From IMG/VR virus record IMGVR_UViG_3300035667_000102, positions 1 through 45,713 of that record: a stretch of DNA of 45,713 nt. The stretch is one strand, 5' to 3'. The translations under genes were made by a program, and so were the position numbers. The stretch comes from a virus. The notes beneath the pieces were generated by a model. It saw only the letters and a list, made by a program, of their open reading frames with translations. It was not told the origin of the DNA and made no database searches. This document shows positions 8,287-30,923 of the stretch, one piece after another (position 1 is the stretch's first letter; each line of letters starts with the position of its first letter).

Positions 8287-11200
8287 TCAGAGCGCCATCA
8301 TACCGGTGAAGCCGTTCCCGCCGCCGATGAAGTCGTTCGCCGCGACCGGGACACCGCCGCCCTGCAAGGTGGCGAGGATCTGGTTGAGCGTGTTTTGGAG
8401 CCCTTCCGTTTGCTCGGTCAGCGTCCCGGTGTTCGCGGCGGTCGCCTCGACGAATGGGTCGACGGCCGTCCTGATCGGGACCGCGCTGTCGATGCGCTCG
8501 ATCGCCTTGTTCGTCGCGGCCATGATCATGTCCATCGCCGTGAAGAACTGATCGGTGGACCCGTAGAGCTGCCGTTCGATGTCGAGATAGGTCTGCGCGG
8601 TCTGCTGGTACTGATCCTGATCGATGCTCTCGCCGGCCGCGATCTTGTCGAGGAAGGGCTGAAGAGCGGCGCGGGCCGTCTCCTCCTGCTGGCGAAGGGA
8701 ATAGGGGCTGTCGGAGCCCATTTTCAGGCTGTCGAGGAACTCCTTGAGCGACGCCGACGCGCTGGCGGTCTTGGTGATCGTCTCTTCCAGCTCGAGCTTG
8801 TAGAGCTGCTGCGCCTGAGCCATCTGCTCGGCGGTCGCGCTACCCTCCTTGAGCGCGGCGACGGTCTTGTCCCACTTCTTGTACAATTCATCGAGCGCCG
8901 CGCCTACCGGGTCGAGCCGCGCCTTCAGCAGCTTGGGAATTTCCTCGATCATGACGGCTTTCTGGATCGCCTTCTCCAGATCCTGCCCGCTGGCCAATAT
9001 CCGCTTGGTGGCGTCTGAAATGCTGCTGATCACACCGTCACGCAAAGCCTCGCCGACGGCCCAGCGGATTGCCGCTTCCTGATCGTCGCCGAAGTCGATC
9101 GCGCCGTTTTTGGTCTTGGTGATTCCCCTACCGGTCGGATCGCCGCGCCAATCGCCATCGCGCAAGCCAAGAGATACCGTCGGGGTTCCGGTGAGGCTTC
9201 CGCCAAGCTGGTCTGCGATGCGGCCGAGCATCTCGGACACACTTCCGATTGCGCCCGTAGAGGCCTCAATCCGCGACTGCGAATTTCCACGAGATGATGA
9301 CGTTCCCAATTCGCCGTACGTGTCGAAGCCGAGCGTAGCAGAGCCGCGGCGCGCCGGCTTTGCGATCTTGAGGATAACGGCGCCGAGCGGCGAAAGGGCA
9401 AAGGCTGTTTCGTCCAGGCCAAGCATGCCCCCAATTTTGCCCATGACGACGGCGGCTGCGGCTGCGGCGGCAAACTGCGGACCCATCGCCGCCACACCCC
9501 CGCTCAGGCCGCCCGCGCCGGCGGCACCGCCAGCGCCGCCGCCCATGCCCCCGGCGCCGATGATGTTGCCCCAGATGCCGCCCGCATCCGCAACGCCGGC
9601 GCCGGTGCCGGCGCCTCCCTTGCCGAACATGCCGAGAATGCTGCCGAGCGGGCCGAAGCCGCCGCTCTGCTCCATCCCGGCCAAAGTCCCGCCCAGGTCG
9701 AACCTCTGCCCGGTCATCATGGCGAGCGTCCATCGCGCCGCGATCTCGGCGATGGCGTCGATGCCTGCCTCTTTGAAGCGGTCCCAGATGCCGTCGACGT
9801 TGCCGCGCATCAGGTCGCCCCAGAGCGCCGCCAGCTCGCGATATTGTTCCTCCTCGCGGCGCCGCATGTCATCCTTCATTCCCTCGAGCTCGCGCTCCTG
9901 CTCCTCGAGGTCCATCCGGGCGGCCTGGTTCTCCTTTTGGCGCAACTCACCAGAGCGACCGACCACCGCGTTCTGCCGGTCCTGGACACGCAGTTGCCGC
10001 TCCTGGAGGGCAAGCGTGTCCGCGATGGTGGCAGCAAGCCCCTGAGCCCGCTCGCGCGTCTGCTGGAGCGCTGCGGCGGCCTCCTCTTCAGCCTGGACCT
10101 GCTCCGTCGTGAGGTGCTCGCGGTCGCGATTGGCGAAGAGCAGTTGATTGAAGACGGTCGCCTGCCGGTCCAGCAGGTCGAGTTGCTCTTGCAGACCGGG
10201 CGTGATTTGCTGCTGCGCGGTGACGATCGCGTCTTGCTCTTGCGCGCCGGCGCCGCGCTCGGCAGCCGCCGCGCGCAGTCCGGCAATACGCTCCGCAGCC
10301 TCGGCGCGCTTCGTGTTGAGCTGCTCTTCGAGAGCAGCTTCGTCGCCGAGGCCGCGAGCGCGCATGTCGCCAAGCCGGGCCTGCTCAACCGCCTGCACTG
10401 TTGACTCGCGCGCCTGGCCAAGGATCCGCGCGCGCGCCTGCTCCTCGCGCTCCAGCGCATTTGCTTGGGCGGCAGCGGCGGCGGCGGCGGCGGCGTCATC
10501 GGCTTCGCGTCCGGTGTGACCGGGCTGGAATGCGGCCCAGGTATTGCGCAACTGGGTCCGATTGCCCCGGACCCTGTTGTACAGCGTCTCGGCTACGCGG
10601 TCCTGGTTGGCGACCGATAAAAGCTGGCTTCTCCAGTCCTCACCGAAGGTCAGGGCTGCATTCTCCCGGAGGGTCCCGCTCTCGAACATGTAGGCGCCCA
10701 CGCCGGTCGATCCCACGTCGCGCGGGCCGCGGCGGCCGCGGGTGAGCGGGCGCATGACGTTGAGCTGGAAGTCATATACCTCGCCCATCGTCATCGAGGT
10801 CAGCAAGCGCGGGGCGTGGACGCCGGCCGCGTTTTGCGTCGGGCTCGTATTGTAAGCGAGCGCGTTGTAGCCGCCCAGCCGAAGAGGGGCCTCGTTGGCG
10901 ATTATGCGCGCGCGCACCTCCGCGAACGGCACGTGAGAATAGTCACGGTTCTCGGCCTCGGCGATGCGCTGCCGTTCTCGCTCGGCCGCGATGGCGACCG
11001 CCCTCCCGGCATTGATAGCGTTCGTTTCCGCGAGGAGCGCCTCGACAGACTTGTGGGTGGCGACAGCGGATCGCTCGGCGTTGCGGACCTGCTCGTCATA
11101 CTGCTGGTTGATGCGGGCGATTCCGTCGCCCATGGCCTGTGCGGCGTCCGCCGCCTGCCCGCGGACGAGCGCCACGCGGGCCTCCCCGATCCCAGTCTCA

Positions 11201-12510
11201 GCTCGAGCAACGCTCTGGTTGGCGAGGCGAAGCTGCTCCTCAAGATCGGCGATGCGCTGGCGCCCGAGGAGAACAGTTGCCTCTGCGATCCCCCCTGGAT
11301 CGTAGGTGGTGCCGCGGGCGCGAGCTACTTCCTCGCGCGCGTCACGCAACTGCCCCTCGATTGCACGCACTTGAGTGCGGAGGTTGGTCAAATTGGTCTC
11401 CGCCCCCTCCAGCGTCCGACGCTGATTTTCCTCAAGGGTTCGGTTTTGATCCTCGAGCGCCTTAGTCTCTTCGCGAATCTTTTCGATAAGCCCGGGCAGG
11501 GTCCGCTCATAGGCTTCCTTGGCCTGCCGCGTGATCTCGGTCTGCGCCGCATTCTTTACGAGCTTCTTGGTCTCCTCCTCAATGGTTGCGGCGGCTTCGC
11601 CGGTCTTGCTCGCCAGCATGCCGAGGACCGTCACGGCGCCGACCACAACGGCTCCCCACGGGCCGGCGAGAAACGTGACCAAGCGCGCCTTGGCTGAAGC
11701 GAGACCGGTGGTCGCTACGGCATCCGCCTCGGCCGCGGCGGCATTGGCGCCGGTCGCGGCCGTGTTCGAATTGGTGGCCGCCGTGCTGGCGCCGGTCGCG
11801 GCTGTGCGTCCTTCCTGGGAGGCGGCATTGGCGCCGGTCGCGGCCGAATTACCCTCAGTCGCGGCGGCACCGGCGCTAAGCACCTCGGTCAGCTGCTCCG
11901 TGGCCCCTTGGGCGCTCTCAATGGCCCCGGCGGCTTCATCATATTGGCTCGTGAGAGACTTGGCCTCGCCAGCGCCGGAGGCCACGGAGCTCCCCATCAT
12001 GCTCAGTGCGTAGAAAAACTGATTTGCCTGTTGGCCGAAGGCCGTAAAGACGTTCTGTCCAAGGCTAACTTGCTGTATAAAGTCACCCATCTGGACCGAC
12101 GTTTGCTGCAGCGCGAACTGGTGCTGGCGGCTCCCCGCAACAACACCCTGCTGCGCAACTGATGTTCGATCGAGTTCGGCCTTCAGGCTGGCCTGGATGC
12201 GCGTATAATTGGCGGTCGAGAGAATGCCGGTCGCATGAAGCTCGTTCGCTCTTGCGATTTGCTGATTGTAGCGCACCTGCGCCGCGAACAGCGGGTCCAC
12301 GGAGGCCAGCATGCGATCCGCCGCGGCCTTGCCGGCAATGAAGGCGCTGGCCGAGCTCTCCGCCGAAAGAGGCGGGGCAGTGACGCCCTTGAGGATGCTC
12401 GTCATCCGGCGAGCGGAGGCGCTCGCCGCGCTCTCCATTTCGGCAAAGCGACCGCGGAAGTCGCTGCTGAAGCCCTCGCCATTGAGGCGGAGGCGCGCGA
12501 TAATATCCAT
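8287..12510 (-). CDS. Tape measure protein with embedded lysozyme-like domain
   Basis: At 1407 residues this is the longest protein in the window. It is long, helical and Ala/Gln/Glu-rich, as expected for a tape measure that sets tail length. The N-terminus forms coiled coil; residues 220-262 are near-repeats of A-A-T-G-A-N/S; residues 265-300 include a hydrophobic segment (GPWGAVVVGAVTVLGML). Residues about 530-665 look like a lysozyme/transglycosylase domain: E540 followed by GGYNALAYN, the MTMGEVYDFQ segment and GVGAYMFESGTL, resembling the E...GGYNA...GxYQ pattern. Further on are Gln/Glu coiled coil (720-900), a Gly-rich stretch and a beta C-terminus. GGAGG lies 7 bases before the ATG. 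A terminator stands just upstream, so this gene needs read-through or its own promoter. Confidence 0.88.
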   Translation of the reverse strand: MDIIARLRLNGEGFSSDFRGRFAEMESAASASARRMTSILKGVTAPPLSAESSASAFIAGKAAADRMLASVDPLFAAQVRYNQQIARANELHATGILSTANYTRIQASLKAELDRTSVAQQGVVAGSRQHQFALQQTSVQMGDFIQQVSLGQNVFTAFGQQANQFFYALSMMGSSVASGAGEAKSLTSQYDEAAGAIESAQGATEQLTEVLSAGAAATEGNSAATGANAASQEGRTAATGASTAATNSNTAATGANAAAAEADAVATTGLASAKARLVTFLAGPWGAVVVGAVTVLGMLASKTGEAAATIEEETKKLVKNAAQTEITRQAKEAYERTLPGLIEKIREETKALEDQNRTLEENQRRTLEGAETNLTNLRTQVRAIEGQLRDAREEVARARGTTYDPGGIAEATVLLGRQRIADLEEQLRLANQSVARAETGIGEARVALVRGQAADAAQAMGDGIARINQQYDEQVRNAERSAVATHKSVEALLAETNAINAGRAVAIAAERERQRIAEAENRDYSHVPFAEVRARIIANEAPLRLGGYNALAYNTSPTQNAAGVHAPRLLTSMTMGEVYDFQLNVMRPLTRGRRGPRDVGSTGVGAYMFESGTLRENAALTFGEDWRSQLLSVANQDRVAETLYNRVRGNRTQLRNTWAAFQPGHTGREADDAAAAAAAAAQANALEREEQARARILGQARESTVQAVEQARLGDMRARGLGDEAALEEQLNTKRAEAAERIAGLRAAAAERGAGAQEQDAIVTAQQQITPGLQEQLDLLDRQATVFNQLLFANRDREHLTTEQVQAEEEAAAALQQTRERAQGLAATIADTLALQERQLRVQDRQNAVVGRSGELRQKENQAARMDLEEQERELEGMKDDMRRREEEQYRELAALWGDLMRGNVDGIWDRFKEAGIDAIAEIAARWTLAMMTGQRFDLGGTLAGMEQSGGFGPLGSILGMFGKGGAGTGAGVADAGGIWGNIIGAGGMGGGAGGAAGAGGLSGGVAAMGPQFAAAAAAAVVMGKIGGMLGLDETAFALSPLGAVILKIAKPARRGSATLGFDTYGELGTSSSRGNSQSRIEASTGAIGSVSEMLGRIADQLGGSLTGTPTVSLGLRDGDWRGDPTGRGITKTKNGAIDFGDDQEAAIRWAVGEALRDGVISSISDATKRILASGQDLEKAIQKAVMIEEIPKLLKARLDPVGAALDELYKKWDKTVAALKEGSATAEQMAQAQQLYKLELEETITKTASASASLKEFLDSLKMGSDSPYSLRQQEETARAALQPFLDKIAAGESIDQDQYQQTAQTYLDIERQLYGSTDQFFTAMDMIMAATNKAIERIDSAVPIRTAVDPFVEATAANTGTLTEQTEGLQNTLNQILATLQGGGVPVAANDFIGGGNGFTGMMAL

Positions 12511-12578: not shown

Positions 12579-13364
12579 CTATCCGCGATCGGATGACGCT
12601 GAGGCCTTTCGCCCGATTTGGAGCGAGAACACGTCGCGGCCGTCATAATTGGCCGGCCCGAAATGGTTCCTAAGGTGCCATTTGAACTTGTCCTGCCCGT
12701 ATGGGAGGAGGTCGTTCCCGACGCACCAGTTCAGATAACTTTCCCAGAGCGTCCGTAGGTGGACGCCCGACCCGGGACTGAGTCTCACCGCGCACCCTTC
12801 GAGCCACTGGTAGAGCTCGCCTTTGCGAGCTGCCGGTGGGTCGAGCGCGCGCTCGACCGAGGCCGCGCTGAAATCGTCGATATTCGGCGGCAGCGGCAGG
12901 CCAAGCTCCTTCCACTGCGCTATTGCCGCGTCCCGCCCGCGCGCCGCCATCATCCGGCGCACCGTCTCCATGCCCCGCCCGATGGCATCGCGGCCCTCAG
13001 GGGTGCGGAGCAGTGGGTGCAGCTTCGCCAGGCCGTTATCGTTGACGGCCAGGCTCTGGCTCAGCGCTTGCTCCATCCGCCGGAAGGCCTCGAGGAACTT
13101 CAGCTTCCATTCCAGCGCCCGAGCACCAGTGAACCCCATGGCCAGCAGCGAGAATCCGTCGCGGTCCATTTCGTAGCCCCGGTATGACCGTCCCCGGCTG
13201 ATAAAATCTCGTGGCGCAAAATTGCGCCCCGAGATTTCCGGCGCCAGTGCGATCAGCCTGTCGATCGCGCGCAGCACGTCTTTATGTGCCTTATCAAACG
13301 CCGCCGCCACGTCTTGGCTGCTGGCCCTGACCTCGCCATCGCGGATCGAAACCAGCGCGCTCAT
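12579..13364 (-). CDS. Rha-family phage regulatory protein
   Basis: The N-terminal about 100 residues match the Rha regulatory domain: SSQDVAAAFDKAHKDVLRAI, RNFAPRDFI, YEMDRDGFSLLAMGFTG and KLKFLEAFRRME. The C-terminal part (about 185-245: ELYQWLEGC, LWESYLNWC, KFKWHLRNHF) resembles the winged-helix module found at the end of phage primases and antirepressors. Total 261 residues. Proteins of this family modulate early or repressor control; the target here is unknown. It is coupled by ATGA to the Tat-signal gene upstream and followed by a strong terminator. Finding it among tail genes rather than near the repressor is unusual and suggests a cargo cassette, possibly a superinfection or lysogeny modifier. 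Confidence 0.75.
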   Translation of the reverse strand: MSALVSIRDGEVRASSQDVAAAFDKAHKDVLRAIDRLIALAPEISGRNFAPRDFISRGRSYRGYEMDRDGFSLLAMGFTGARALEWKLKFLEAFRRMEQALSQSLAVNDNGLAKLHPLLRTPEGRDAIGRGMETVRRMMAARGRDAAIAQWKELGLPLPPNIDDFSAASVERALDPPAARKGELYQWLEGCAVRLSPGSGVHLRTLWESYLNWCVGNDLLPYGQDKFKWHLRNHFGPANYDGRDVFSLQIGRKASASSDRG

Positions 13365-13765
13365 GCCCCCATCTCCATCAACGATCGCGCGACCTGGTCG
13401 ATCAGCTCCGTGCTGAGCTCGTCCGCCATATACTCTCGCGCGACGCGAAGCTTGCCGGCCAACCCGCGGGACGAGCTCGCGATCGCGTCCCGAACCGTCA
13501 ACGCGGCCTGATCAGACTGGAGGCTCCACAGCCGGCCCGCCTCATCATCCTCCCCAGGACAAGCCGTCTCCAGCGCCTGCCACCGCATCCATGCCTCATA
13601 GGCGGGGTCGGCCACCCCGAAGCTGCCGGCCGTGGCCGAGCCGGCGACCACGAGTGGTGCCACCGCCAGCGCCCCAAGGAAAACGCGACGCCGAATATCT
13701 TGGTCTGAATTATTTGGTGACGGTCCCACACCGGGAACGCTATCGCTGTCTTCAGCCTGCTGCAT
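13361..13765 (-). CDS. Tat-signal small exported protein (unknown)
   Basis: This 134-residue protein has a twin-arginine-like leader: D-I-R-R-R-V-F-L (about 23-30) then a hydrophobic stretch ending in A-T-A-G near residue 48. The rest is helical and acidic (YEAWMRWQALE, EDDEAGRLW). It could be exported folded to the periplasm by the Tat pathway or be anchored by this segment. It is the first leftward gene of the cargo cassette, divergent from the ribbon-helix-helix gene, with AGGA about 9 bases before the ATG. It shares the spacer 13766-13880 with the operator there. The function is not recognisable. Confidence 0.5.
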   Translation of the reverse strand: MQQAEDSDSVPGVGPSPNNSDQDIRRRVFLGALAVAPLVVAGSATAGSFGVADPAYEAWMRWQALETACPGEDDEAGRLWSLQSDQAALTVRDAIASSSRGLAGKLRVAREYMADELSTELIDQVARSLMEMGA

Positions 13766-13824
13766 GGGTCTAATCCTTGCACGGGTTAGGGTCGCCGGGG
13801 TGGGTCAACACTCCGGCGGCTCGT

Positions 13825-13847
13825 AACTTACACCACTTTTGTAAGTT
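13825..13847. promoter_or_regulatory. Operator-like inverted repeat AACTTAC-N9-GTAAGTT
   Basis: Two perfect 7-base arms separated by 9 bases lie in the divergent spacer between the Tat-signal gene and the ribbon-helix-helix gene. The right arm abuts the -35 element of the rightward promoter. A ribbon-helix-helix autoregulator binding here would block its own transcription. Confidence 0.6.
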
Positions 13848-13875
13848 TGCAACCATGCGCTGGAAACGCTATCAT
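13847..13875 (+). promoter_or_regulatory. Promoter TTGCAA-N17-TATCAT
   Basis: A good sigma70-type promoter with 17-base spacing ends 5 bases before the ATG of the ribbon-helix-helix gene, so transcription would begin at or next to the start codon, giving a leaderless or nearly leaderless message. It overlaps the operator-like repeat. Confidence 0.5.
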
Positions 13876-13880
13876 CACGT

Positions 13881-14045
13881 ATGGAGCGAGGGCACAAAAC
13901 AGAGCGGTTCGGCATGGTGGTCGAACCTCAGTTCTTAGAGCGGATCGATCAATGGCGACGGAAGCAGAAGGACATTCCATCGCGGGCGGAGTCGATAAGA
14001 CGCCTCGTCGAGCGCGCGCTGCAATCCGAAAACTCTTCTACCTAG
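13881..14045 (+). CDS. Ribbon-helix-helix (Arc/CopG-like) DNA-binding protein
   Basis: This small gene of 54 residues reads MERGHKTERFGMVVEPQ, then FLERIDQWRRKQKDIP, then SRAESIRRLVERALQ. The order of a short strand (RFGMVVEP), a helix, a turn with P-S-R-A-E-S and a second helix is the classic ribbon-helix-helix dimer fold found in Arc repressor and antitoxins. It lies directly behind a promoter and an inverted repeat, so autoregulation is likely. The next gene starts inside it in another frame. It might control only this cassette, or act as the antitoxin or repressor partner for the exported protein; no toxin motif is visible in the neighbour. Confidence 0.75.
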   Translation: MERGHKTERFGMVVEPQFLERIDQWRRKQKDIPSRAESIRRLVERALQSENSST

Positions 14046-14515
14046 CAGTCCTCTCATGGGCATGCTTCAGCGTGCCCGCTACTGCGGGATGGCAAGGGTC
14101 TTCTTGGGGAATGACGAGATCACAAGTCCGCGCTGCTATCCCCTTCCCGCTGAACGAACGACCCATCCCCGAGCTAAATTGGTCTACTCCGGAACTGTCT
14201 GGACATTACAACGCCAATGGCTTCAGCTTCGACGCGAGCTTCCTCTTTAGTCACGCTGGGGGCTTAGCTCAGATCGACCTCTCCCTGTCCCCAGCCCAAT
14301 CGTGCGCTGAACTGGAGAGCTTTATGCATAGTTTATATGGTCGCCCTACCCATCAAGAAATTGACGAAAGAGGGGACAAATTTCTCCAGTGGCGCGATGC
14401 TGAACGTCGCAACTTGGTCAGTTTATCAATTCTACCCAATCCAGGAGCTGACCGGATAGGATTTTATTGCTCGATAGGCTACGGCCCACTCTCAGAACCC
14501 GGAACTAGCCTTTAA
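13952..14515 (+). CDS. Exported cargo protein (unknown)
   Basis: The mature part carries a signal-peptide-like segment (RKLFYLAVLSWACFSVPATAG) with a likely cleavage after A-T-A, followed by W-Q-G-S-S-W-G-M-T-R-S-Q-V, a pattern common in small secreted bacterial proteins. The only ATG that includes the leader is at 13952, inside the ribbon-helix-helix gene, giving 187 residues with a long basic N-region. There are two Cys (in QSCAELE and FYCSIG) that could form a disulfide. Codon use is more AT-rich than the neighbours, which suggests later acquisition. The gene converges on and overlaps by 11 bp the opposite-strand gene 14505-14954. A role in lysogenic conversion is possible but not shown. 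Confidence 0.55.
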   Translation: MATEAEGHSIAGGVDKTPRRARAAIRKLFYLAVLSWACFSVPATAGWQGSSWGMTRSQVRAAIPFPLNERPIPELNWSTPELSGHYNANGFSFDASFLFSHAGGLAQIDLSLSPAQSCAELESFMHSLYGRPTHQEIDERGDKFLQWRDAERRNLVSLSILPNPGADRIGFYCSIGYGPLSEPGTSL

Positions 14516-14954
14516 CACCCAATGATACCCCTTGGCTCATTAGATAATCTCGCACTTCCTTGGCGATCAGTGACACTGTTTCGTAATGCGCGGTTCGCGC
14601 GATGCTCTTCCCCGTCAATGCTTCTCGTCCGCTGTTGAATCTCGCCTGCATAGCGCGAGAAATCAAGTCAGCCAGCGGAGGATCATCAAGAATTGAGCAG
14701 GCGATGGCCCGGACTAATGATTTTCCAGCGCGGCCCCAATACCCCATTTTTTCCACTACCGCCTCAGTATATTCATGCACACCCATCAGGAGGTCAAAGC
14801 CGCACTCGTCTAAATCTCCCGAAACGGCGAGGCCGTAACGATATTCCAAATAACGTCTGCACTCATCAGTTACAGGGAACGACCCTGTCACAAGAGCAGG
14901 CGGCTCAACCGAGAAGATTAAAACCCCCTTCGGGTCGAGGCCGATGATTCTCAT
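14505..14954 (-). CDS. Cargo protein of unknown function
   Basis: This 149-residue soluble protein begins MRIIGLDPKGVLIFSVEPP and contains TDECRRYLEYRYG, GVHEYTEAVVEKMGYWGRAGKSL and a helical C-terminus. Its composition is visibly less GC-rich than the phage core, like its convergent neighbour. No signal peptide, membrane segment or known catalytic motif is visible. No good ribosome site precedes the ATG, so start choice is uncertain. It lies inside the cargo cassette between hairpins at 15011-15025 and 12530-12556. Confidence 0.5.
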   Translation of the reverse strand: MRIIGLDPKGVLIFSVEPPALVTGSFPVTDECRRYLEYRYGLAVSGDLDECGFDLLMGVHEYTEAVVEKMGYWGRAGKSLVRAIACSILDDPPLADLISRAMQARFNSGREALTGKSIARTAHYETVSLIAKEVRDYLMSQGVSLGVKG

Positions 14955-15025: not shown

Positions 15026-15686
15026 ACTTTATCGCGTTCGCCAATTGCACGAATGCCGCGGCGACGCGCCCAGGGAACGGTGCCAGCGTGCCTTCGATCG
15101 AGAAGCGAGCGCTGAGGTTCACTTGGGGCATCAGCACGAAGATAGGGACTACGGCGCCGTAGCCCGGGCCGATCCGACGAGCGTCGCGCTTCAGGCTTTT
15201 CCTGAAGCGGCCGGTCCGCATGTTCACGCGGCCATCGGCGACCAGCAAGGGCGCCTTGCCCCGCCGGTAAACTGGTCTCAGCTTCTGCCCAGTCTTGCGC
15301 TCCCATTCCTCCGGCGTAAGCCCCCCGCCGCGCCCTCGTCCGCCAGCCGCGGGCAAGGGGATGGCGACGGGCCCCCCGTCCAGTGCGCGGATGCGGGCAC
15401 CCCGGGAAAAGGAACGCATCGCGCCCTCGGTGCGCCGGCCGCCTTTGGGGAAGATATAGCCGACTGGCTCGCGGGCGAGCCCGCCGATCGGGTAGACCTT
15501 GCTGGTCCAGGCCCGCCCGAGGCGGCCCAGGCCGGCCGCAGCAGTCGCACCCTCTAGCGCCTGCTCGGCCTCCCGCGTCGTCTCCGCGACCGCCCGGCGC
15601 TCAGCCTTCAGATATTCGGTCTCGATGCGATGCAGCTCACGCTCTAGCTGACTGCGATCGACGCTGAACTCGATCGCCGCGGGCAT
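15024..15686 (-). CDS. DUF6441-like tail completion protein
   Basis: This 220-residue basic protein starts MPAAIEFSVDRSQLERELHRIE with an N-terminal helix, then a central Gly/Arg-rich segment (AAGGRGRGGGLTPEEWERKTG) and a C-terminal domain containing GYGAVVPIFVLMPQV. The layout is like DUF6441 and HK97 gp10-type proteins that help close or join the tail. GGAGG lies 7 bases before ATG 15686, better than the GTG one codon upstream. The ATG overlaps the stop of the frameshifted tail chaperone product (TGATG), which suggests coupling to frameshifted ribosomes. It is followed by the cargo cassette rather than directly by the tape measure. Confidence 0.65.
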   Translation of the reverse strand: MPAAIEFSVDRSQLERELHRIETEYLKAERRAVAETTREAEQALEGATAAAGLGRLGRAWTSKVYPIGGLAREPVGYIFPKGGRRTEGAMRSFSRGARIRALDGGPVAIPLPAAGGRGRGGGLTPEEWERKTGQKLRPVYRRGKAPLLVADGRVNMRTGRFRKSLKRDARRIGPGYGAVVPIFVLMPQVNLSARFSIEGTLAPFPGRVAAAFVQLANAIK

Positions 15687-16620
15687 CACTCAGCCTCCTT
15701 GTCGATGTTGCTGTCCAGCAGCGCGAAGGCGTCCATCAGGGCGGCCGGCTGCTCGCCGACGCCACCGGAGCAGGGAAGGGCGGTGAAGCTCCCCATCATC
15801 CCCATATTGCGCCGGCAGGTGAACCACAGGTCGACCACGGCGAACGCCCAGGCCGGCACGGTCAGCCGGGGGTTTTCGACCCAGCGCTCACCCGCGACCT
15901 CCCAGCCTTTTTCGTCGATTTTGCGCCCGAAGGCGAAGTCTTGCGGGCGGAGCCGGACTTCGCGGGCGCAGAGGAGTTTTTTCGCCCCTCCTCCGTCACC
16001 GCTCCGTAGAGCAGCCGATACGCATGGAGGCCGGCCGACTTCATGTCGTTCTGCGCGACGCCGCCGGCCGCCTCAAGGGTGACCAAGCCGTCAGGCCCCG
16101 CCTGGAAGGGCTGCTTCAATCCTTCCCAGCCGACGCAAAAGCGGCGGAAGGCTTCGAGCGGCAGCATCGCGACGCGGCGAGCCTGCTGGGCCATCAGCGA
16201 TCGATAATCGGGCCAATATTTGGCGACGAGCCGCCGTATCTCTTCCAGATCCTGCCGCTGATTGTCGGGCAGTCGCCTCGTCTCCTTTTCGAGGAAAGCC
16301 GGTCGATCCTCTTCCCGGATCTCGAATACGCGCCTGAGCAGATCGGAATTGCTGGCCTCGATCTCCTTCTCAGCGGCGAGCATGGCCTCCAGCTCGGCCA
16401 ATTGGTCTGGCGCATCCGCGAGCAGGAAGGCGACACCGGCCTCGAACGCTCCTTTGACCTCATATTCGAGGACGCGTCCCGCATCATGCTCGCCTGTCAG
16501 CTCGGCTTCGAACATCTCGCGCTCGGCGACGTCGCCGGCGCGGATCATGAACACCGGCCCCATCCCGGTTCCGTACCAGGGCGGCGTGAACGGCTTTGGC
16601 GTGGTCTTGAGGAAGATCAT
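15686..16620 (-). CDS. Tail assembly chaperone, -1 frameshift product (GT-like)
   Basis: If ribosomes slip -1 at the A AAA AAC heptamer (15982-15976), the 215 codons of the shorter product are extended by 96 codons to a stop at 15688-15686, giving 311 residues. The extension reads as a true protein: QDFAFGRKIDEKGWEVAGER, PAWAFAVVDLWFTC and ALMDAFALLDSNIDKEAE, with Trp, Phe and balanced charge. Its stop overlaps the start of the next gene, as expected for genuine coding sequence. Lambda gpG/gpGT and many siphoviruses use the same design, the longer form binding the tape measure during tail tube assembly. The alternative is an isolated error in the sequence, but the downstream stem and spacing favour programmed slippage. 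Confidence 0.7.
15862..16620 (-). CDS. Tail assembly chaperone, unshifted product (G-like)
   Basis: This 252-residue protein begins MIFLKTTPKPFTPPWYGTG, with an N-terminal beta part (VFMIRAGDVAEREMFEAEL) and a helical body containing RRLVAKYWPDYRSLMAQQARR and FRRFCVGWEGL. It follows the major tail protein, where the tail assembly chaperone lies in siphoviruses. After the slippery site (residues 213-215) the zero-frame tail is a low-complexity Ser/Lys/Ala run that ends at 15862. That run looks like a filler frame, consistent with a frameshift gene. The start at 16620 has GGGG about 6 bases upstream. The hairpin at 16641-16673 stands between it and the tail tube gene and may lower its expression. 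Confidence 0.7.
   Translation of the reverse strand: MIFLKTTPKPFTPPWYGTGMGPVFMIRAGDVAEREMFEAELTGEHDAGRVLEYEVKGAFEAGVAFLLADAPDQLAELEAMLAAEKEIEASNSDLLRRVFEIREEDRPAFLEKETRRLPDNQRQDLEEIRRLVAKYWPDYRSLMAQQARRVAMLPLEAFRRFCVGWEGLKQPFQAGPDGLVTLEAAGGVAQNDMKSAGLHAYRLLYGAVTEEGRKNSSAPAKSGSARKTSPSGAKSTKKAGRSRVSAGSKTPG
15923..15982 (-). promoter_or_regulatory. -1 ribosomal frameshift signal: AAAAAAC plus stem
   Basis: On the minus strand the heptamer A-AAA-AAC (15982-15976) is in the correct phase (zero-frame codons CGA AAA AAC). A 6-base spacer (TCCTCT) is followed by GCGCCCG-CGAAG, which pairs with CTTCG-CCTT-CGGGCGC (15938-15923): 7 plus 5 pairs with a 4-base bulge. Heptamer, spacer and stem all fit known bacterial -1 frameshift signals. 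Confidence 0.75.
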
Positions 16621-16696: not shown

Positions 16697-17932
16697 TCAT
16701 AAGAAGCTCAAGAAGGCGTCGCTGTCGCGATTCTGAGCATCGCGGCCCGGCGAGAGGGCCTGCCACTTCGTCTGATCCGAGCGCAGCTTGCCGCGCATGG
16801 CCGGATCGGCCTGCACGGGCTGGGCGAGCGGAAGGACGAGGCCCCAGGAATTGCCGAAGGTCGCGCCGGCGCGCAGGGCGATCGGATAGTTGGCCGCGGC
16901 GCCGATCTCCGTCATCACGTCGCGCGTGGTGACCAGGGTGCGGAGCGGATCGGCCTCGAAGACCGGCACGCGCCCGGTGATCTGGCCGGGCCCGAAACCG
17001 TACATGGTGTTCGGATCGTCCACGGATTCGAGATTGCCGCCGTTGCGCAGCGCCCAGCTCGAGATTGGAAGCCGCAAGCGGTTGATGATCGCGGCCGGCG
17101 GCGTCGCCGCGCCCTGAACGAGCAGCGGGGCGCTGTGGCTGGCCACCACCGCGTTCGTGGGCATCGCGACCACGGTCGCGCCCAGATAGGTCCCCGTCAT
17201 GTTGAAGGAGGCCTCGCCGGGCCGTGCGTTCTTCCCCTCGAACTCAGCCAGGCCGCGAACGTCCTGCCACTGGTGGAAATTGCCGTCCTCGAACCAGCCG
17301 ACCGTCGCGCAGGGATGGTCGGTGAGCCGGCTGGCCGCGTCGATCGGCGTGGTGCCGGCATAGGTCCAATGCGCGGGGATCGCGGCGAGGGTGGACGTGG
17401 TGAGGACCGGCGAGAAGGTGTCGCTGAGCGTCGCGATCTTGCCAGCCGTGTAATCGGTGACGAACGGGATATGGCCTGCGCCCGGACCCACGGAGAGGAT
17501 CAGCGGCATGCCCCGGTAGAGCTGCGCCGTGCCGGTATAGCCGGTGCCGAGCGTGCCGGTGGTCGCCCCGCCAGCGGCCAGCGCAGCGGCGGCGACCGAA
17601 GTCTGGAAGAAGCCGCGCCAGCCGCAAGCGCCGAGCGCAGCGTGCATCGGGGGCTTGATCAGGCTCGTATAGGTCACCCCGGCGCCCGCGCCCTTCATGC
17701 GCATGCGGAAGCCGATCTTGACCTCTTGGCCGATCACCATCGGCGCGGCCGCGACGAAGCTGCCATTGGCCTCGTTGCTGGCCTCGGTGCCGAACGGCGA
17801 ACCATAGGTGAAGCTGTCCGCCACGATGCCCACCGCATGCAGCGTCGGGTCGAGCGTGACGGGGGAGCCTTCGGCGGTCTGCAGCGCGATGAGCAGCAGC
17901 CCGTTGTCGGGACGAATGACGGGATTGGCCAT
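16697..17932 (-). CDS. Major tail (tube) protein
   Basis: This 411-residue, Gly/Ala/Thr-rich beta protein begins MANPVIRPDNGLLLIALQTAEG, with strand pairs such as EVKIGFRMRMKG and a long C-terminal beta domain. Tail tube proteins of this size with an extra domain are common in alphaproteobacterial siphoviruses. GGAGG lies 6 bases upstream, giving a strong start as expected for an abundant structural protein. It follows the tail terminator and head-tail joining genes and precedes the chaperone with the frameshift, exactly the siphovirus order. No contractile sheath gene accompanies it, which supports a non-contractile tail. Confidence 0.75.
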   Translation of the reverse strand: MANPVIRPDNGLLLIALQTAEGSPVTLDPTLHAVGIVADSFTYGSPFGTEASNEANGSFVAAAPMVIGQEVKIGFRMRMKGAGAGVTYTSLIKPPMHAALGACGWRGFFQTSVAAAALAAGGATTGTLGTGYTGTAQLYRGMPLILSVGPGAGHIPFVTDYTAGKIATLSDTFSPVLTTSTLAAIPAHWTYAGTTPIDAASRLTDHPCATVGWFEDGNFHQWQDVRGLAEFEGKNARPGEASFNMTGTYLGATVVAMPTNAVVASHSAPLLVQGAATPPAAIINRLRLPISSWALRNGGNLESVDDPNTMYGFGPGQITGRVPVFEADPLRTLVTTRDVMTEIGAAANYPIALRAGATFGNSWGLVLPLAQPVQADPAMRGKLRSDQTKWQALSPGRDAQNRDSDAFLSFL

Positions 17933-19872: not shown

Positions 19873-22047
19873 TTAGGCGCCGGGCTGCTTGTGCGCCGAG
19901 CGGAAGTTGACGGCGCCGACGCCATAGTCGTGCCGCACCTTCCATTCGACGCCGTCGACCCGCCAGCCTTCCTCGCTGTCGGTGAACGGCTCGGTGACAC
20001 CGTTCAGGAACACGACCTCGATCGCCGGCGCCACATTGGGATCGGCGAAGGCGTAATAGGCCGTGCCGGTCAGTCGTGGCGTGTCGACGATCTCGGAGAA
20101 GAGGCCGTTGACGATGTTCGGCCGCTGCAGCTTGTTGACCGCGTCGGGATCATATTGGCTGCCGTTGAGGATCTTGGCGACGCCGCCCAGGCCAAGCGGG
20201 AAGAGCCCGATCGCAGGACGGATTTCGAGATATTCGTTGCCGCTCAAATCCTTCTGCGAAGCCATCGCCACCCGAATCGCGTCGAACGCCGCGACGGTCG
20301 GCGCGACGCCCGAGCCGGCCAGGTTCCCGTGGCTGGCGTGGAACAGCGCGACGCCGTCGTTCATGGTCGGGTTCGAGTTGAGCAAGGCATAGACATCGAT
20401 CTCGATCGTCAGCTTGGCCGCACGGCCAAGGTCGACCGCGAGGCCGGAAAAGGCCTCCATGTCGTCGTTGACGATGGCCTGCCTGGACAGGTTGATGATG
20501 TTGCCCTTGGTCGTGGCCCGGATCTTCTCCTTCGCCAGGTCCGGGATCGGCTTGTTCTTGAACTCGCCGGCCTCGTTGACGCTGTCGAGCGCGCCGAAGC
20601 TGCCCCGCAGATAGCGATGGTGATCGCGGAAGTCGGTGACCGTGCCCGTCCCGGCGAATTTCGTCCAGGTGTCCGGGGTGACCGCATAAGCCGCCTGAAG
20701 CGTCTTGTGCATCGCATCCTCGAAAAGCACCGGGAAATCGCTCGTCGTCTGCGTGATGGCCGAGCGGGTCGTCATCGCCTCGCGGACGATCATGTCGGGA
20801 TCGCGATGGTTCGCCCGAATGCCCGCGATCTGCAGGGCTTCGCGAGCCAGGTCGGAGTTGCGAACGCCGCGGAACTCGCCGGGGTCGATCTTCAGGGTCT
20901 CGCCGCGCAGCGCGGCCGCCTGCTCGACCATGCGGGCGACTCCCGCCTTGACGAGGATCCAGTTCGTCGCGCCCTCGCGAAACTTGTCGCGAACGTCCTG
21001 GGTGACCCTCATCGGCCCGTTATGGCCGATCTGCGCGCCATCGGACTGCGTGGCGAGCCTGTCGAGGATCTTCTCGCGGGCGGTCGCGAGCGTGGTCTCG
21101 GAATTGACCAGGGGGCCGATGAAGGTGTCGTCGAGGCCGTGCTTCTGGCCGAGCGCGCGGATCTCCGCGACGCGGGTGCGCTCGGCGGTGACAGCCGCTT
21201 GCACGTCGGCCGAGGTCAGGGCGGTCACCGGCTCGATGACGGTCGCGGTGACCAGCTCCAGCTCAGGGGCGAGAGCTCCGGTCTTCGGCAGGACGTCGTG
21301 CGCCTCGAGGGCCACGGCAGAGGCGGCGATCTTGTCAATCTCGGCCTGCGTGCCGCCCTCCTTCTGAAACTTGGAAATTGCGGCAACCAGCGCCGCGCGG
21401 GTCTTGTAGAGGTCCATGATGGTTTCCTTCGGTTGAGGCGCGGGCACGGCCGCCCTTTTCAGGCTCATCGCCATGGTGGTGATGAGCGGGCTATCGGGGG
21501 CCTTGCGGAACCCGAATGCTTGGACGTTGATCGCCGCGGCTACCTGAAGGGCCGAGGCGATCTCGGTGATGAAGCCCTGATCGAGCGCCTCTTCGGCGCT
21601 CATCCAAGTCTCGGCGTCGAGCATCGGGATCAGCTCTTCAGCGCTGAGCCCGGTTTGCCCGGAATAGATGCCCACAAGCTGGTCCCGGATGATGTCGAGC
21701 TTGTCCGCCTTGCGGCGCAGCTCGGCTGCGTCGCCGCAGGCGCAATCCCACGGATTGTGGATCATCAGCAGTGCGTTGTCGGCCATGCTGATCGTCTCGC
21801 CGGCCATCGCAATAACCGAAGCCATCGACGCACACAGGCCGTCGATCGAAACCTCGACCTTGCGGCCCTTTCCCTGCTCGCGGATCAGGGCGTTGTAGAT
21901 GGTCAGGCCTTCCATGACGTAGCCGCCGGGGCTGTTGATCCGGATGATCAGGTCGTCATCGCCTTCGGAGATCATCGGGACGAGCGTCTTTGCGTCGAGA
22001 CCGTCCCAGCTGTCGCCGACGATCCCGTAGAGGAGGATTTCGGGCAT
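19873..22047 (-). CDS. ClpP-like prohead protease fused to major capsid protein
   Basis: This 724-residue protein joins two head proteins. Residues 1-185 are a ClpP/S14-like protease: INSPGGYV (37-44), the C-A-S-M-A-S motif with nucleophile Ser74, and M-I-H97-N-P. Residues from about 211 (MDLYKTRAALV) to the end form a scaffold-like helical segment (211-330) and an HK97-type capsid protein. The protease would cut the scaffold from the capsid during head maturation. Such fusions are known in several siphoviruses. The ATG at 22047 has AGGAAA just upstream and lies one base after the portal stop. The codons just before MDLYKT encode AAGGAAA, a possible internal ribosome site (see findings). Confidence 0.85.
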   Translation of the reverse strand: MPEILLYGIVGDSWDGLDAKTLVPMISEGDDDLIIRINSPGGYVMEGLTIYNALIREQGKGRKVEVSIDGLCASMASVIAMAGETISMADNALLMIHNPWDCACGDAAELRRKADKLDIIRDQLVGIYSGQTGLSAEELIPMLDAETWMSAEEALDQGFITEIASALQVAAAINVQAFGFRKAPDSPLITTMAMSLKRAAVPAPQPKETIMDLYKTRAALVAAISKFQKEGGTQAEIDKIAASAVALEAHDVLPKTGALAPELELVTATVIEPVTALTSADVQAAVTAERTRVAEIRALGQKHGLDDTFIGPLVNSETTLATAREKILDRLATQSDGAQIGHNGPMRVTQDVRDKFREGATNWILVKAGVARMVEQAAALRGETLKIDPGEFRGVRNSDLAREALQIAGIRANHRDPDMIVREAMTTRSAITQTTSDFPVLFEDAMHKTLQAAYAVTPDTWTKFAGTGTVTDFRDHHRYLRGSFGALDSVNEAGEFKNKPIPDLAKEKIRATTKGNIINLSRQAIVNDDMEAFSGLAVDLGRAAKLTIEIDVYALLNSNPTMNDGVALFHASHGNLAGSGVAPTVAAFDAIRVAMASQKDLSGNEYLEIRPAIGLFPLGLGGVAKILNGSQYDPDAVNKLQRPNIVNGLFSEIVDTPRLTGTAYYAFADPNVAPAIEVVFLNGVTEPFTDSEEGWRVDGVEWKVRHDYGVGAVNFRSAHKQPGA
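21415..21432 (-). promoter_or_regulatory. Possible internal start (AAGGAA then ATG) for capsid-only product
   Basis: On the minus strand AAGGAA-ACCATC-ATG falls inside the fusion gene exactly at the junction between protease and scaffold/capsid. The spacing of 6 is suitable for a ribosome site. Initiation here would give a 514-residue capsid precursor without protease, reminiscent of the nested C/Nu3 genes of lambda. Confidence 0.45.
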
Positions 22048-22048
22048 A

Positions 22049-23566
22049 TTATTTCCTTTCGGTTCCACTCGCCGGAGGCGCAGCCGGGTTGCCCACGGCG
22101 GTCACCTTGCGGGGGTCGCTGTCGAGCACGAGCTTAAGGTCATCGATCAGCCTGTTGTCGGCCGCGCGCTCGGCGAAGTGCTTGTCCGGATCACGTCCTC
22201 GTTCACGGATTGCCTCGCTGAGGTTCATCTGTCCGGACCTGATCGCATCTCGGATCGCCGGGATCTCGCTGGCCGGGTCGGTCATTTCGAAGCTCGGCGG
22301 CGTCCATTCGAAATACGCGTCCTTGACGTTGTGCCCCATCATCTCCGCGGCATCGAAGAACCAGCGCTCGGCGCCGCCGCAAAATTGCGGGATGAAGCTG
22401 AGCCACTGGATCGTCGAAACCGATCGGCGGAAGGCGAGCCGGCCGAGCCTGCCGGAAATGAAACTGACGCCGGTAAGGTCGCCGGTCAGCAATTCGTAGG
22501 GCAGCCCGAGCAGTCCAGCTCCTACGGCGCGCAAGCTCACCCTCGAGAAGTCGAGATACCCCTCCACTCCGGGAGGCGTCGCGAACTTGACGTCCCGGCC
22601 CGGCGGCAAGTGCTCGATAATCCCGGGCTCAAGCGCCTCGATCATGCTGCCGTCGCCGCCCTCCGGGCTGGTGGGCGTGGGCTGGGCGTCGCCAATATCT
22701 CCTTCGGAATCTGTGGTGAATACCGAGAAGCAAGAAGCGATCTTCTCGCGCATCAGCCGAGCGTCTTCGAAATCGGCGAAGTCCCGCATCCGCATGATTA
22801 CCGGAGCGAACCACGGGGTTCCGTGCTGCTGCTCTGGCCGGTCGGCGCGGTAGCAGTGGATCACGTCCTCCGCCGGCACCGGCTTGGTTTCGAATATGAA
22901 CAGGCGACGCTCGCCGGGGTGGCCCGAGCGCATCCAATATTGCTTGCGCCGACCGATCGGGTCGAACTCGATGCCGTTGACCATATGGCCACCGTCGAGC
23001 GGCCCGTCCTTGCTCATGTCGATATAGTCGGGCTCGAGCACTTGCATTTGGAACGGCAGAGGAAGGCCGTCCGACGCGCGGCGCCACCTTCGGCGGGTGA
23101 TCGCGGCCCCGCTTTCGACCATCGCTCCAGCAGCCTGGAGCTGCAGTCCGTAGAGATCGTGCCGGCCTTCCGCGTCGCATGCAGTGCTGTCGAAATGGCG
23201 GCGAGCGAGATCGGTCAGCTTCTCGTCAATTTCTGCCTTGCCGTTGACACGGCGATAGACCTGGAACGTTATGCCGGTTCCGACCAGATGCTCTGCCCAA
23301 GCCTGCTTCCCCCGCGCCGCATAAGGATTGTTGCGAACCAGGTCGTGGGAAACGCCCCTGAGTGCGTTCATAACCGCCGGGGTCAGCTCCCCATTGGCGC
23401 TGCGCAAAGACCGCCGCCAGCCAAGCGCGCGGCGGCCGAGAGTAGCACCATCGAACTCGGCCTTGGTCTTATCAACCATCGCCAAGCGCAGCCGCGCCCG
23501 TTCCCGCTCCAAGGCCAGGCGGGGTGCCACCGCGGCGATCGCGCGGTCCAAGATGTTCCTCGCCAT
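22049..23566 (-). CDS. Portal protein (lambda gpB-like)
   Basis: This 505-residue protein contains the landmark stretches of lambda-type portals: GRRALGWRRSLRSANGEL, RGVSHDLVRNNPYAARGK near the N-terminus, VLEPDYIDM, VIHCYRADRPEQQHGTPWF and then GLPYELLTGDLTGVSFISGR. The last includes the conserved L-T-G-D segment of the clip domain. The portal is the dodecameric ring through which DNA is packaged and ejected. It lies between gpW and the protease/capsid gene in the same order as lambda (gpA, gpW, gpB, gpC). The C-terminal end is Pro/Ala-rich. Confidence 0.88.
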   Translation of the reverse strand: MARNILDRAIAAVAPRLALERERARLRLAMVDKTKAEFDGATLGRRALGWRRSLRSANGELTPAVMNALRGVSHDLVRNNPYAARGKQAWAEHLVGTGITFQVYRRVNGKAEIDEKLTDLARRHFDSTACDAEGRHDLYGLQLQAAGAMVESGAAITRRRWRRASDGLPLPFQMQVLEPDYIDMSKDGPLDGGHMVNGIEFDPIGRRKQYWMRSGHPGERRLFIFETKPVPAEDVIHCYRADRPEQQHGTPWFAPVIMRMRDFADFEDARLMREKIASCFSVFTTDSEGDIGDAQPTPTSPEGGDGSMIEALEPGIIEHLPPGRDVKFATPPGVEGYLDFSRVSLRAVGAGLLGLPYELLTGDLTGVSFISGRLGRLAFRRSVSTIQWLSFIPQFCGGAERWFFDAAEMMGHNVKDAYFEWTPPSFEMTDPASEIPAIRDAIRSGQMNLSEAIRERGRDPDKHFAERAADNRLIDDLKLVLDSDPRKVTAVGNPAAPPASGTERK

Positions 23567-27746: not shown

Positions 27747-30700
27747 CTACGGCAGCCAGTCCTCGCCATTGTCAGGCTGCGAGGGTGCACCGTCGTCGCC
27801 CGCATGTCCGCGCTCATGCTCCATGCGCGCCTTCTCAAAGGGATCGTCCATATCCGGCAGCTTCTCGCGGACCTTGCCTTGGTCATCGACGAACTCGTCC
27901 GCGCTCCGGACCAGCCTGAGCCCGAGCCAGCGCATTCCGTCACTGCGCGTCTTAGTGAAACCCTTGTCGGTCATCGCATTGGCAAAGCCTTTGGCGCTCC
28001 ACTCCTTCTCGCCGGCGGCCTTGCACCACGCGGCGAACACCGCGTGCAGCTCGGATGATTTCTCCCGAGCCTCGGGATCGACGACGGTGCAGAGCCGCAG
28101 GAAGCGGGCGAGCGGATCGCTATGTTCGCGATAGGCCTGTGTCGCCGCTGTCACGCCCTCGGGCTCGACGAAGCCATGTTCGATGTAGTCGATCAGGCCG
28201 GCGACGAGGCGGGCGAACACGCCCGGCAGTTCGCCCGCCTTGATCTTGTCGAGCAGCTTGGTGTCCTTCTTCGGCCAGTTCTCTACCCCAGGCTCGGGCT
28301 GGTCTATGTTGCGCAGCCATGGTGAGAGCTTCATCCTGCTCCAAATGCCCTCATCGGTGTCGGGGATTTCGGGTCGACTATTGCCGCTCATCAGCAGCTT
28401 GAAGCGCGGCAGCAGGTCGAAGAAGCCTCGGTGTAGCGCCCGCACCGCCATCGGCTCCCCGCCCGTCGCCGCCTTGATCAGCGCGGAGTTGAGCTTTGCC
28501 CCACGCTCCGGCTCGGACGCGCGCAGCATCCTTACGCCGCCGAGCCGCGCGAGATCGGGCGTCGCGGCGTCGCCGCGCTTCTTGATGCCCTGGTCGAGGA
28601 AGCTCTCGATCCCGATCGTGCCGGAATAGTCGCCGAGCGATGAGCACCAGCTGTCGATCGTCGTCGACTTGCCGTTGCGGCCGCGCCCGTAGTTGAACCA
28701 CAGCTTGTGCTCGCCGGTGTCGCCGCTGGCCGCATAGCCGCCGACCTGGTGAAGATAGCGCCGCATGGCGGCTTCGGGCTGCGCCCATGCGATCATAGCG
28801 TCGTAGAGTGGCGCCGGCGCCTCCCTGTCATATTCCACCGGAGCGAGCCGGGTGATCAGGTCCCCTCGCCGATGCGGCTCAAGCGAGACGCGTGCCTTCA
28901 CCGTCCCGTCGGGCCGGGATTCGGGGGAAAGCCGCAGCGTTCCGTTCAGGACGTTGATCGCCATCAACTCGCAATCGAAGCGCTCGATCGGCACGGTCAT
29001 GAACCGGCTGCGCTCTATCCCCGGGGTGCCGCGCGCCAGATTGGCGATAGCGGCGGGCTTGCCCGCCTGCTCGCATTGGCGCCCCCATCCCGCGATCAAC
29101 GTGGAAAAGCGCTTCCACGACTTCCCGACCGGCACCCAGTGATCGAGCGAATGTGGGTTTGGCTCGGCCAGGTCCAGCTCCTGCTGCTTGCCCTTGGTCA
29201 CCAGCTCGATCTTGAGGCCGGTTTCGGCGACGCGCCGCGCCTCGCGCTGCACGGCGCGAATCGTTTCGAACACCGCCGCGATCAACTGAGCCGGAAGCGT
29301 GTCCTTGTCCTGGTCCAGCACCGCCCAGCGCCACCCATCCCAACCCAGCCAGCCCTTGGCGGTGGTGAACCGGAATTCTTCCCCGTAGCGCTCGAGGAAA
29401 CGCTCAGCCAGGCCGAAGTCGGTCATCGGCAGCAATGCGCACCGAAGGTCGACGAGCAGCGGCCGCGGATCGAACCCGCGCGCTATTCCGTCGGCGAGGG
29501 ATCGGTCGATATCGGCATGCTGAACGTCCGCCACGCCCTCGTAGATGGGCCACAGCGCCTCCTTGGACTGACCTTCATCGATCAGGTCGGCCGAAACGCG
29601 ACGGCCGATCGACCAGGCGAGCGCGGTCAGCGCCTCCTTCGTCCGCTCGACATGATCCAGTCGGCGCTCAAGCCATGCAACCGAGATCCGCTTGAGCCGG
29701 TCGAGCTCGGCTTCGCTGAGCGCTACCGGGGGGGCGACGTCGTCACCCCCGGGCCCCCGTCCCTGTGATTGGCGAGCCATCCTTCCGTCCCGGAAGGGAG
29801 GTGTTTGATCATCCCCACCAGCCGGGGAGCGCGCAGGCCCGCGAGCAGGCGGCGCCCGCGATCCGGAGCCGGAACCGCCGGAAAGGCGCTGCCTACTACC
29901 GCTACGGGACGCGCGGTCGCGCGCTGCGGCCGCGATCTCGGTGAGATCGCGAGGGTTGTTGATCCCGGCGGACCAGCCGCTCTCGATGGTTGCGATGAGC
30001 TGGCGATCGTCGTCCCGGCCGGGATTGGCCCGGGCGGCCGCCTCCAGGCTACCCCGCGCGATCGTCTCGTCCAGCGCGCCTGAGGCGACCAGCGAGGCGA
30101 TCTTGAGCGCGCTTTCGTTCAGCTGCGGGTTGCGCCGGCCGCTTGGCGCCTCGCGCACGGCCCGGCATTCGAGATCGAGCCCACTCAGCGCATATTTGCG
30201 GATCGCCTCGCGCTCGGCCTCGCCCAGGTCGGCGGGCATCGGCCGCCCCGGCCCGCTCGGCCGAGCGCCGCCCTCGGCGGTCTTGCGCTCTCGCAGCACT
30301 TCGATCAGCCGCTCCGGCGCCCTCGCGATCCCGCCGACCGGCTCCTTGCGGTGCCACCGATATTTCAGGCCGGCCTGTCCCTTGATCGCGTTCGGCCCCA
30401 TCACGCTCGGCGGCGCAATCACGTAGCCGCCCAGGCCGCGCACATCGACATGTTCGGGCAGATTGCCGCGATTGGTGATCGCCGGCCCGTCGTCGCCCTG
30501 CAGCAGATAGGCGTGAACGCCGTCCGACGGCGTCAGCGCCGCCAGCGTGACCGGGAATTCGCAGCCGAGCTGCGCCTCGAGCTCGGTCTTGAGCCGCTCC
30601 AGCGTCCAGACCTCGCCGGTGTCCTTATCCTCGCGCGGGTCGAAATCGACGACGAACAGGCGCAGCCCGCCGGCGTCGAGCGTGGCGTGCCCGGTCGCGA

Positions 30701-30923
30701 TCGCGATCAGGGCCTTGGGCCAGCGCTTCCACCAGCCGCGAATCTGGTCCGGGTCGGTCGACGCCTTGACTAAGCCGCCGCTGTTCGGGATCGGCTTGTT
30801 CGTCGCCGGGTCGACGTCCTTGGGCAGCAGCGGCCGCTTGTCCTTCGGGCTGCACGGAAAGACCGGCCAGCCGCGTGCGGCATAAGCCAGGGCGGCGTCG
30901 AGAAGGGGATTGTCTCCGCTCAT
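27747..30923 (-). CDS. Primase-polymerase / SF3-type helicase replication protein
   Basis: This 1058-residue protein combines two replication enzymes. The N-terminus (1-220) is a PrimPol domain: ALAYAARGWPVFPC, the metal site F-V-V-D-F-D, GVHAYLL, and VDVRGLGGYVIAPPS. The middle is helical and disordered. The C-terminal 400 residues form a D5/P4-type helicase: N-Y-G-R-G-R-N-G-K-S-T-T (Walker A), then RMLRASEPERG, FKLLMSGNSRP and IWSRMKLSPW. The end (SELHAVFAAWCKAAGEKEWS) is the winged-helix seen in such primases. It likely opens the origin and primes synthesis, and the inverted repeats just downstream could be that origin. It starts in ATGA overlap with the DndC-like gene. Confidence 0.85.
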   Translation of the reverse strand: MSGDNPLLDAALAYAARGWPVFPCSPKDKRPLLPKDVDPATNKPIPNSGGLVKASTDPDQIRGWWKRWPKALIAIATGHATLDAGGLRLFVVDFDPREDKDTGEVWTLERLKTELEAQLGCEFPVTLAALTPSDGVHAYLLQGDDGPAITNRGNLPEHVDVRGLGGYVIAPPSVMGPNAIKGQAGLKYRWHRKEPVGGIARAPERLIEVLRERKTAEGGARPSGPGRPMPADLGEAEREAIRKYALSGLDLECRAVREAPSGRRNPQLNESALKIASLVASGALDETIARGSLEAAARANPGRDDDRQLIATIESGWSAGINNPRDLTEIAAAARDRASRSGSRQRLSGGSGSGSRAPPARGPARSPAGGDDQTPPFRDGRMARQSQGRGPGGDDVAPPVALSEAELDRLKRISVAWLERRLDHVERTKEALTALAWSIGRRVSADLIDEGQSKEALWPIYEGVADVQHADIDRSLADGIARGFDPRPLLVDLRCALLPMTDFGLAERFLERYGEEFRFTTAKGWLGWDGWRWAVLDQDKDTLPAQLIAAVFETIRAVQREARRVAETGLKIELVTKGKQQELDLAEPNPHSLDHWVPVGKSWKRFSTLIAGWGRQCEQAGKPAAIANLARGTPGIERSRFMTVPIERFDCELMAINVLNGTLRLSPESRPDGTVKARVSLEPHRRGDLITRLAPVEYDREAPAPLYDAMIAWAQPEAAMRRYLHQVGGYAASGDTGEHKLWFNYGRGRNGKSTTIDSWCSSLGDYSGTIGIESFLDQGIKKRGDAATPDLARLGGVRMLRASEPERGAKLNSALIKAATGGEPMAVRALHRGFFDLLPRFKLLMSGNSRPEIPDTDEGIWSRMKLSPWLRNIDQPEPGVENWPKKDTKLLDKIKAGELPGVFARLVAGLIDYIEHGFVEPEGVTAATQAYREHSDPLARFLRLCTVVDPEAREKSSELHAVFAAWCKAAGEKEWSAKGFANAMTDKGFTKTRSDGMRWLGLRLVRSADEFVDDQGKVREKLPDMDDPFEKARMEHERGHAGDDGAPSQPDNGEDWLP

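Follow-up and report, generated by a model that had tools for sequence, protein, structure and literature searches.

Does the gene that directly follows the putative tail tube gene in this viral genome yield one protein or two? The window, by which we mean the whole 45,713-base IMG/VR virus record analysed here (65.8% G+C), carries its structural genes on the minus strand; among them is an open reading frame (ORF) overlapped by an extension that lies in the −1 frame and runs up to the next gene. An initial annotation had read this arrangement as a programmed −1 frameshift generating a long tail chaperone, by the strategy of lambda-like tails. On comparative sequence evidence, we consider it very probable that programmed −1 ribosomal frameshifting does operate in this tail assembly chaperone gene.

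Layout of the locus

The frames proposed at the outset were confirmed. The A-AAA-AAC heptamer is in the correct phase, the spacer comprises 6 bases, and a −1 shift opens 96 further codons that end at the next gene, with which the terminal TGA overlaps as TGATG. The coordinates were also right; that the features lie on the minus strand had been left unstated. The relevant features are as follows.

16620..15862, minus strand: zero-frame ORF, putative short tail assembly chaperone (G-like), 252 aa, ATG at 16620
15982..15976, minus strand: slippery heptamer A_AAA_AAC, in phase as (CG)A_AAA_AAC
15975..15970, minus strand: spacer TCCTCT, 6 nt
15923..15969, minus strand: 3' stem-loop, arms 15969..15956, 15940..15933 and 15928..15923
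15862..15975, minus strand: zero-frame tail past the heptamer, 37 codons and TGA, overlapping the extension
15686..15976, minus strand: −1 frame extension (T-like), 96 codons and TGA (15688..15686)
15686..16620, minus strand: putative whole long (GT-like) product, 311 aa
15024..15689, minus strand: next gene, DUF6441 protein (PF20039, E=4e-18)
16697..17932, minus strand: putative tail tube protein, directly upstream of the chaperone ORF, named on its position
8287..12510, minus strand: tape measure protein (phrog_9959, tail length tape measure, E=1.7e-4)
12579..13364, minus strand: Rha-type regulatory protein (Phage_pRha, E=9e-22), in a cassette
13361..13765 and 14505..14954, minus strand: two cassette ORFs without Pfam matches
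13847..14515, plus strand: opposite-strand cassette ORF, 222 aa, with a signal-peptide-like stretch

Homologues of the zero-frame ORF share an N-terminal start of the form M-I/L-..-F-T-P-P-W (alignment A7). The DUF6441 gene opens with GTG at 15689, followed by an in-frame ATG at 15686, and overlaps the TGA of the extension. The tail tube candidate has no match in Pfam or PHROGs, and the phrog_9959 profile that identifies the tape measure protein also matches, with E=2.5e-31, the protein annotated as tape measure in Rhodobacter phage RcKemmy (L008).

Other parts of the window hold features of separate interest. The cassette between the DUF6441 and tape measure genes (12579..14954) resembles a moron inserted into the tail operon. 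At 19873..22068, a single 731-aa ORF joins a major capsid protein to a Clp-type protease (PF00574 and PF25209); RcKemmy and RcKvothe have this fusion annotated too. A likely replication primase-helicase of 1,090 aa, containing Prim-Pol and D5_N domains, is encoded at 27747..31019, upstream of the terminase genes.

The junction across the family

Within the genes of the window, AAAAAAC occurs in phase once among 8,080 codon positions, namely here, and any in-phase X_XXY_YYZ heptamer with Y = A or T occurs four times; about 0.03 such heptamers would be expected by chance in the stretch of roughly 70 codons where a shift could work. Single-protein scans for relatives returned one near-identical contig only, and one genome_contigs scan returned none. 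Contig L001 is independent of the window and has 90% amino acid identity to it; the 58-nt identical run that the two share around the heptamer is not significant, the longest run, of 59 nt, having P = 0.18. Searched by tblastn with the shifted 311-aa product, 50,697 phage records gave a single match, Synechococcus phage MinM1, at 35% identity and from residue 214, which is the junction. The same junction in MinM1 reads GCA_AAA_AAC_TGA, and the −1 frame extension again runs to a DUF6441 gene. Family members also occur on two Azospirillum plasmids, with A_AAA_AAC on one and G_GGA_AAC on the other.

A scan of IMG/VR with the alignment gave 80 loci. Automated frame analysis and removal of near-copies left 58 loci with a heptamer, from metagenomes, the Azospirillum plasmids and MinM1. 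In these 58 non-redundant relatives an upstream ORF is followed by the extension in the −1 frame, and the heptamer is kept at the homologous position, as A_AAA_AAC in 39 and G_GGA_AAC in 19, which lends strong support to the proposed long chaperone form. The heptamer is followed by T in 58/58 and usually precedes the homologous first Leu of the extension by exactly 6 nt. In these ORFs only 13% of Lys codons are AAA and 7% of Gly codons GGA, and A fills just 6% of third codon positions. Given this scarcity, what is conserved in the heptamer must be its nucleotides and not the amino acids they encode. On the extension tree, heptamer type switches at least 4 times by supported branches, and 12 times on the best tree, with slipperiness kept throughout. 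Three further loci (L062, L087, L098) carry A_AAA_AAA, and L078 is uncertain. One population (L054/L055; L054:3960-4100) is without a heptamer and has ACT_TTT_CAG at the same junction, where slippage on a U_UUU tetramer could perhaps replace it.

Two rival explanations turn on the run of As itself. In a virus record of metagenomic origin, a frame break at a homopolymer raises the suspicion that an A was lost or gained in the A6 run, splitting one continuous gene. However, in L001, the isolate MinM1 and more than 50 other loci the frames are related in the same way at this position, the G_GGA_AAC relatives have no run longer than 3, and no relative fused in frame was found. Because independent contigs and isolates share the break, a shared error is excluded, and we give this explanation next to no chance. 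The six As might also cause transcriptional slippage, giving mixed mRNAs. Six As are short for polymerase slippage, and G_GGA_AAC, used by 19/58 relatives, has no long homopolymer, which argues against such a process; moreover, the heptamer invariably stands in the phase that tandem tRNA slippage requires. Transcriptional slippage is accordingly highly improbable, and ribosomal frameshifting remains our reading.

Substitution patterns indicate which of the overlapping frames is constrained. Across 12 close pairs, substitutions in the dual-coded stretch number 14/24/56 at positions 1/2/3 of the −1 frame, equivalent to 24/56/14 in the zero frame; upstream of the overlap, the same pairs show 39/33/143 in the zero frame. 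The window and L001 alone give 1/2/6 and then 1/1/9. As third-position substitutions favour the −1 frame, it is the extension, and not the zero-frame tail, that is the protein under selection. The extension had been credited with real protein character, and purifying selection on its frame, together with residues invariant across the 58 rows of the alignment (L1, W25, P36, P68, Q76, A83 and F84), bears this out. The zero-frame tail, described as low complexity, is indeed so in the window, where its 37 codons are rich in S, K, A, P and G; across relatives it ranges from 0 to 62 codons, is one quarter Ser, and is not conserved. The initial annotation had suggested aligning relatives for conservation of both frames: the −1 frame extension is conserved and the zero-frame tail is not.

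An extension under selection might still be a separate gene with its own start, or be reached by re-initiation after the zero-frame stop. GenBank annotates MinM1 in this way (UXQ89170, with an internal start), and in some relatives, considered below, the zero frame ends right before the extension. However, ATG, GTG or TTG occurs in the extension frame near the conserved start in 1/58 loci only, leaving 57/58 without a start of their own. The conserved part opens at the codon read straight after the slip, an invariant Leu (alignments A5/A6), and the internal start annotated in MinM1 would lose about 20 conserved residues. Independent initiation also leaves the conservation of the heptamer unexplained, and we consider it very unlikely compared with a frameshift. 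On the comparative evidence as a whole, chance, sequencing error and a dead overlap are all untenable. Counted against the frameshift reading are the L054/L055 population without a heptamer, the lack of covariation in the stem of the window, and the lack of significant likeness to a characterised chaperone.

Hairpin, upstream element and abutting stop

Under the proposed mechanism, most ribosomes would stop at 15864..15862 and release the short chaperone. A minority would slip at A_AAA_AAC, where tRNA-Lys on AAA and tRNA-Asn on AAC would re-pair one base back, probably helped by the hairpin 6 nt downstream. These ribosomes would read 96 more codons to give the 311-aa long chaperone. In E. coli, A_AAA_AAC slips only moderately when set beside A_AAA_AAG (PMC5009743), a further point against the frameshift reading; nearly all such heptamers shift measurably in that host when stimulated (PMC4066793).

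The window hairpin was initially described as a bulged stem of 12 pairs. The bulge is present (4 nt, on the 3' side), while the pair count is 14, in segments of 6 bp and 8 bp, with 2 apical pairs besides. The structure starts 6 nt after the heptamer, which fits the 5-8 nt spacing of stimulated −1 signals of the dnaX/IS type. Its minimum free energy is −26.6 kcal/mol (z = −2.93), a value that 3/200 shuffles match; over a longer stretch of 91 nt, z is only −0.93. Averaged over the 58 loci, folding is most stable immediately past the heptamer: the 50 nt that start 3 nt after it (+10..+60) have a family mean z of −1.24 (SEM 0.22), against values of about 0 to −0.6 at the majority of positions. Among relatives with a zero-frame tail, the mean is −1.75 for A_AAA_AAC, compared with −0.33, indicating weak hairpins, for G_GGA_AAC. 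The geometry of the window stem recurs in L001, L031, L035, L056 and L065 and is similar in L093, a subset of about seven relatives chosen after their folds were seen.

Covariation of the window stem was sought in 30 distinct relatives, in which 57.7% of cells were paired, as in shuffles, and RNAalifold found no consensus structure across the family. We therefore reject a single RNA stem conserved family-wide. A Shine-Dalgarno-like peak lies upstream of the heptamer and is no stronger than in synonymous controls (p = 0.15); amino acid content accounts for it, and an upstream stimulator of this kind is unsupported. In view of the folding averages and of these covariation and control tests, we regard assistance by a 3' hairpin as likely, though unproven, and a Shine-Dalgarno element as unsupported.

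About ten relatives lack the zero-frame tail altogether, their zero-frame stop following directly on the heptamer (AAAAAAC or GGGAAAC, then TGA or TAG). The slip-stop variants are listed here.

Slip-stop variants: L022, L051, L053, L061, L067, L088, L090, L094, L019-L021 and MinM1 (L002 and L005)

At least 4 changes are forced on the extension tree, and the abutting stop has apparently evolved several times. A simple model in which the stop replaces the hairpin is unsupported, since slip-stop relatives are not without 3' folding (mean z −1.49, versus −1.28). We tentatively suggest, as a possibility more doubtful than likely, that one chaperone family uses the same heptamer in two contexts, in which a stop codon at the point of slippage can act alongside the 3' hairpin to set the ratio of long to short product, the zero-frame tail being dispensable.

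Chaperone assignment and comparison with known systems

Neither half of the putative long product matches Pfam, PHROGs or PDB sequences, and the extension is also without an NCBIfam match. The halves were modelled apart, as the fused 311-aa product is not read in one frame. AlphaFold2 gave a confident, mostly helical model of residues 1-215 of the short form (mean pLDDT 93.3) and a fair model of the extension (pLDDT 84.7). Foldseek found nothing significant for either half, no E-value being better than 0.27. Among the weak viral matches to the short form are several named tail assembly chaperones (best E 0.28); none is significant, and they amount to no more than a hint.

We infer a chaperone mainly from gene order. 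A homologue of the tube candidate lies directly upstream in 56/58 relatives, a tape measure gene downstream in 48/58, and a DUF6441 gene downstream in 44/58. It might be argued that the frameshift is real and the protein something else, for example a head-tail or other assembly factor: it has no recognised chaperone domain, and DUF6441, a 'minor tail protein' in RcKemmy, sits between the gene and the tape measure. Nevertheless, in most relatives the gene stands right after the tube and before the tape measure, and the corresponding slot in RcKemmy holds an annotated frameshifted tail chaperone with G_GGA_AAC at its junction, beside a homologous tape measure. These observations, and the weak fold matches noted above, lead us to consider another assembly role unlikely and a tail chaperone the better assignment.

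The lambda gpG/gpGT pair is reportedly the product of such a frameshift in a tail assembly chaperone gene (Levin 1993; Xu 2004, 2013, 2014; review, PMC5009743). By analogy, coating of the tape measure protein would fall to the part common to our two products, and recruitment of tail-tube subunits to the rare extension. The likeness to a G/GT system drawn in the initial annotation extends to organisation: the slot between tail tube and tape measure, a −1 shift near the 3' end, a C-terminal extension in the −1 frame, and both forms apparently kept. It does not extend to sequence or significant fold similarity with any known G or T protein, and the extension domain is either unrelated or has diverged beyond recognition. 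Unlike in lambda, DUF6441 here precedes the tape measure, and some relatives have a stop directly after the heptamer. The lambda layout is widely conserved in long-tailed phages despite low sequence similarity (PMC5009743).

Other phages offer parallels in the signal. The tape measure chaperones of phiCbK and Colossus, phages of the alphaproteobacterial genus Caulobacter, use AAAAAAC and GGGAAAC, respectively (PMC3556154), which are exactly the two heptamers of this family, in the same gene slot; the parallel drawn is one of heptamer and slot. The Rhodobacter phages RcKemmy, RcKvothe and RcOceanus have homologues of the tape measure, of DUF6441 and of a 148-aa tail protein, and their chaperone is annotated as a frameshifted join with an in-phase G_GGA_AAC near the junction. 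Their extension, in contrast, has CxxC motifs and by eye does not appear homologous, and their DUF6441 gene precedes the tube instead of following the chaperone. MinM1 has the homologous extension (UXQ89170.1, hypothetical protein) and the same heptamer and junction, but with TGA at once after the heptamer and the frameshift unannotated. Its linear record (L002, ON981384.1 near 42,756 and 1-577) happens to be cut within the chaperone gene, the zero-frame part being a misc_feature at one end and the extension, with an internal start, lying at the other.

The frameshift trick itself is already known from many phages. What is new is the chaperone family, together with a natural series of signals that includes slip-stop forms; judged by sequence, the extension belongs to a new protein family that has no entry in Pfam, PHROGs or NCBIfam. 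The locus defines an uncatalogued two-part tail chaperone family that annotation misses, there being no model for either half, and the single phage record that holds it, of 50,697, carrying no annotated frameshift. Its roughly 60 natural variants, with two heptamers, stronger and weaker hairpins, presence or absence of an abutting stop, and one possible tetramer, form a test set for −1 frameshifting efficiency outside E. coli.
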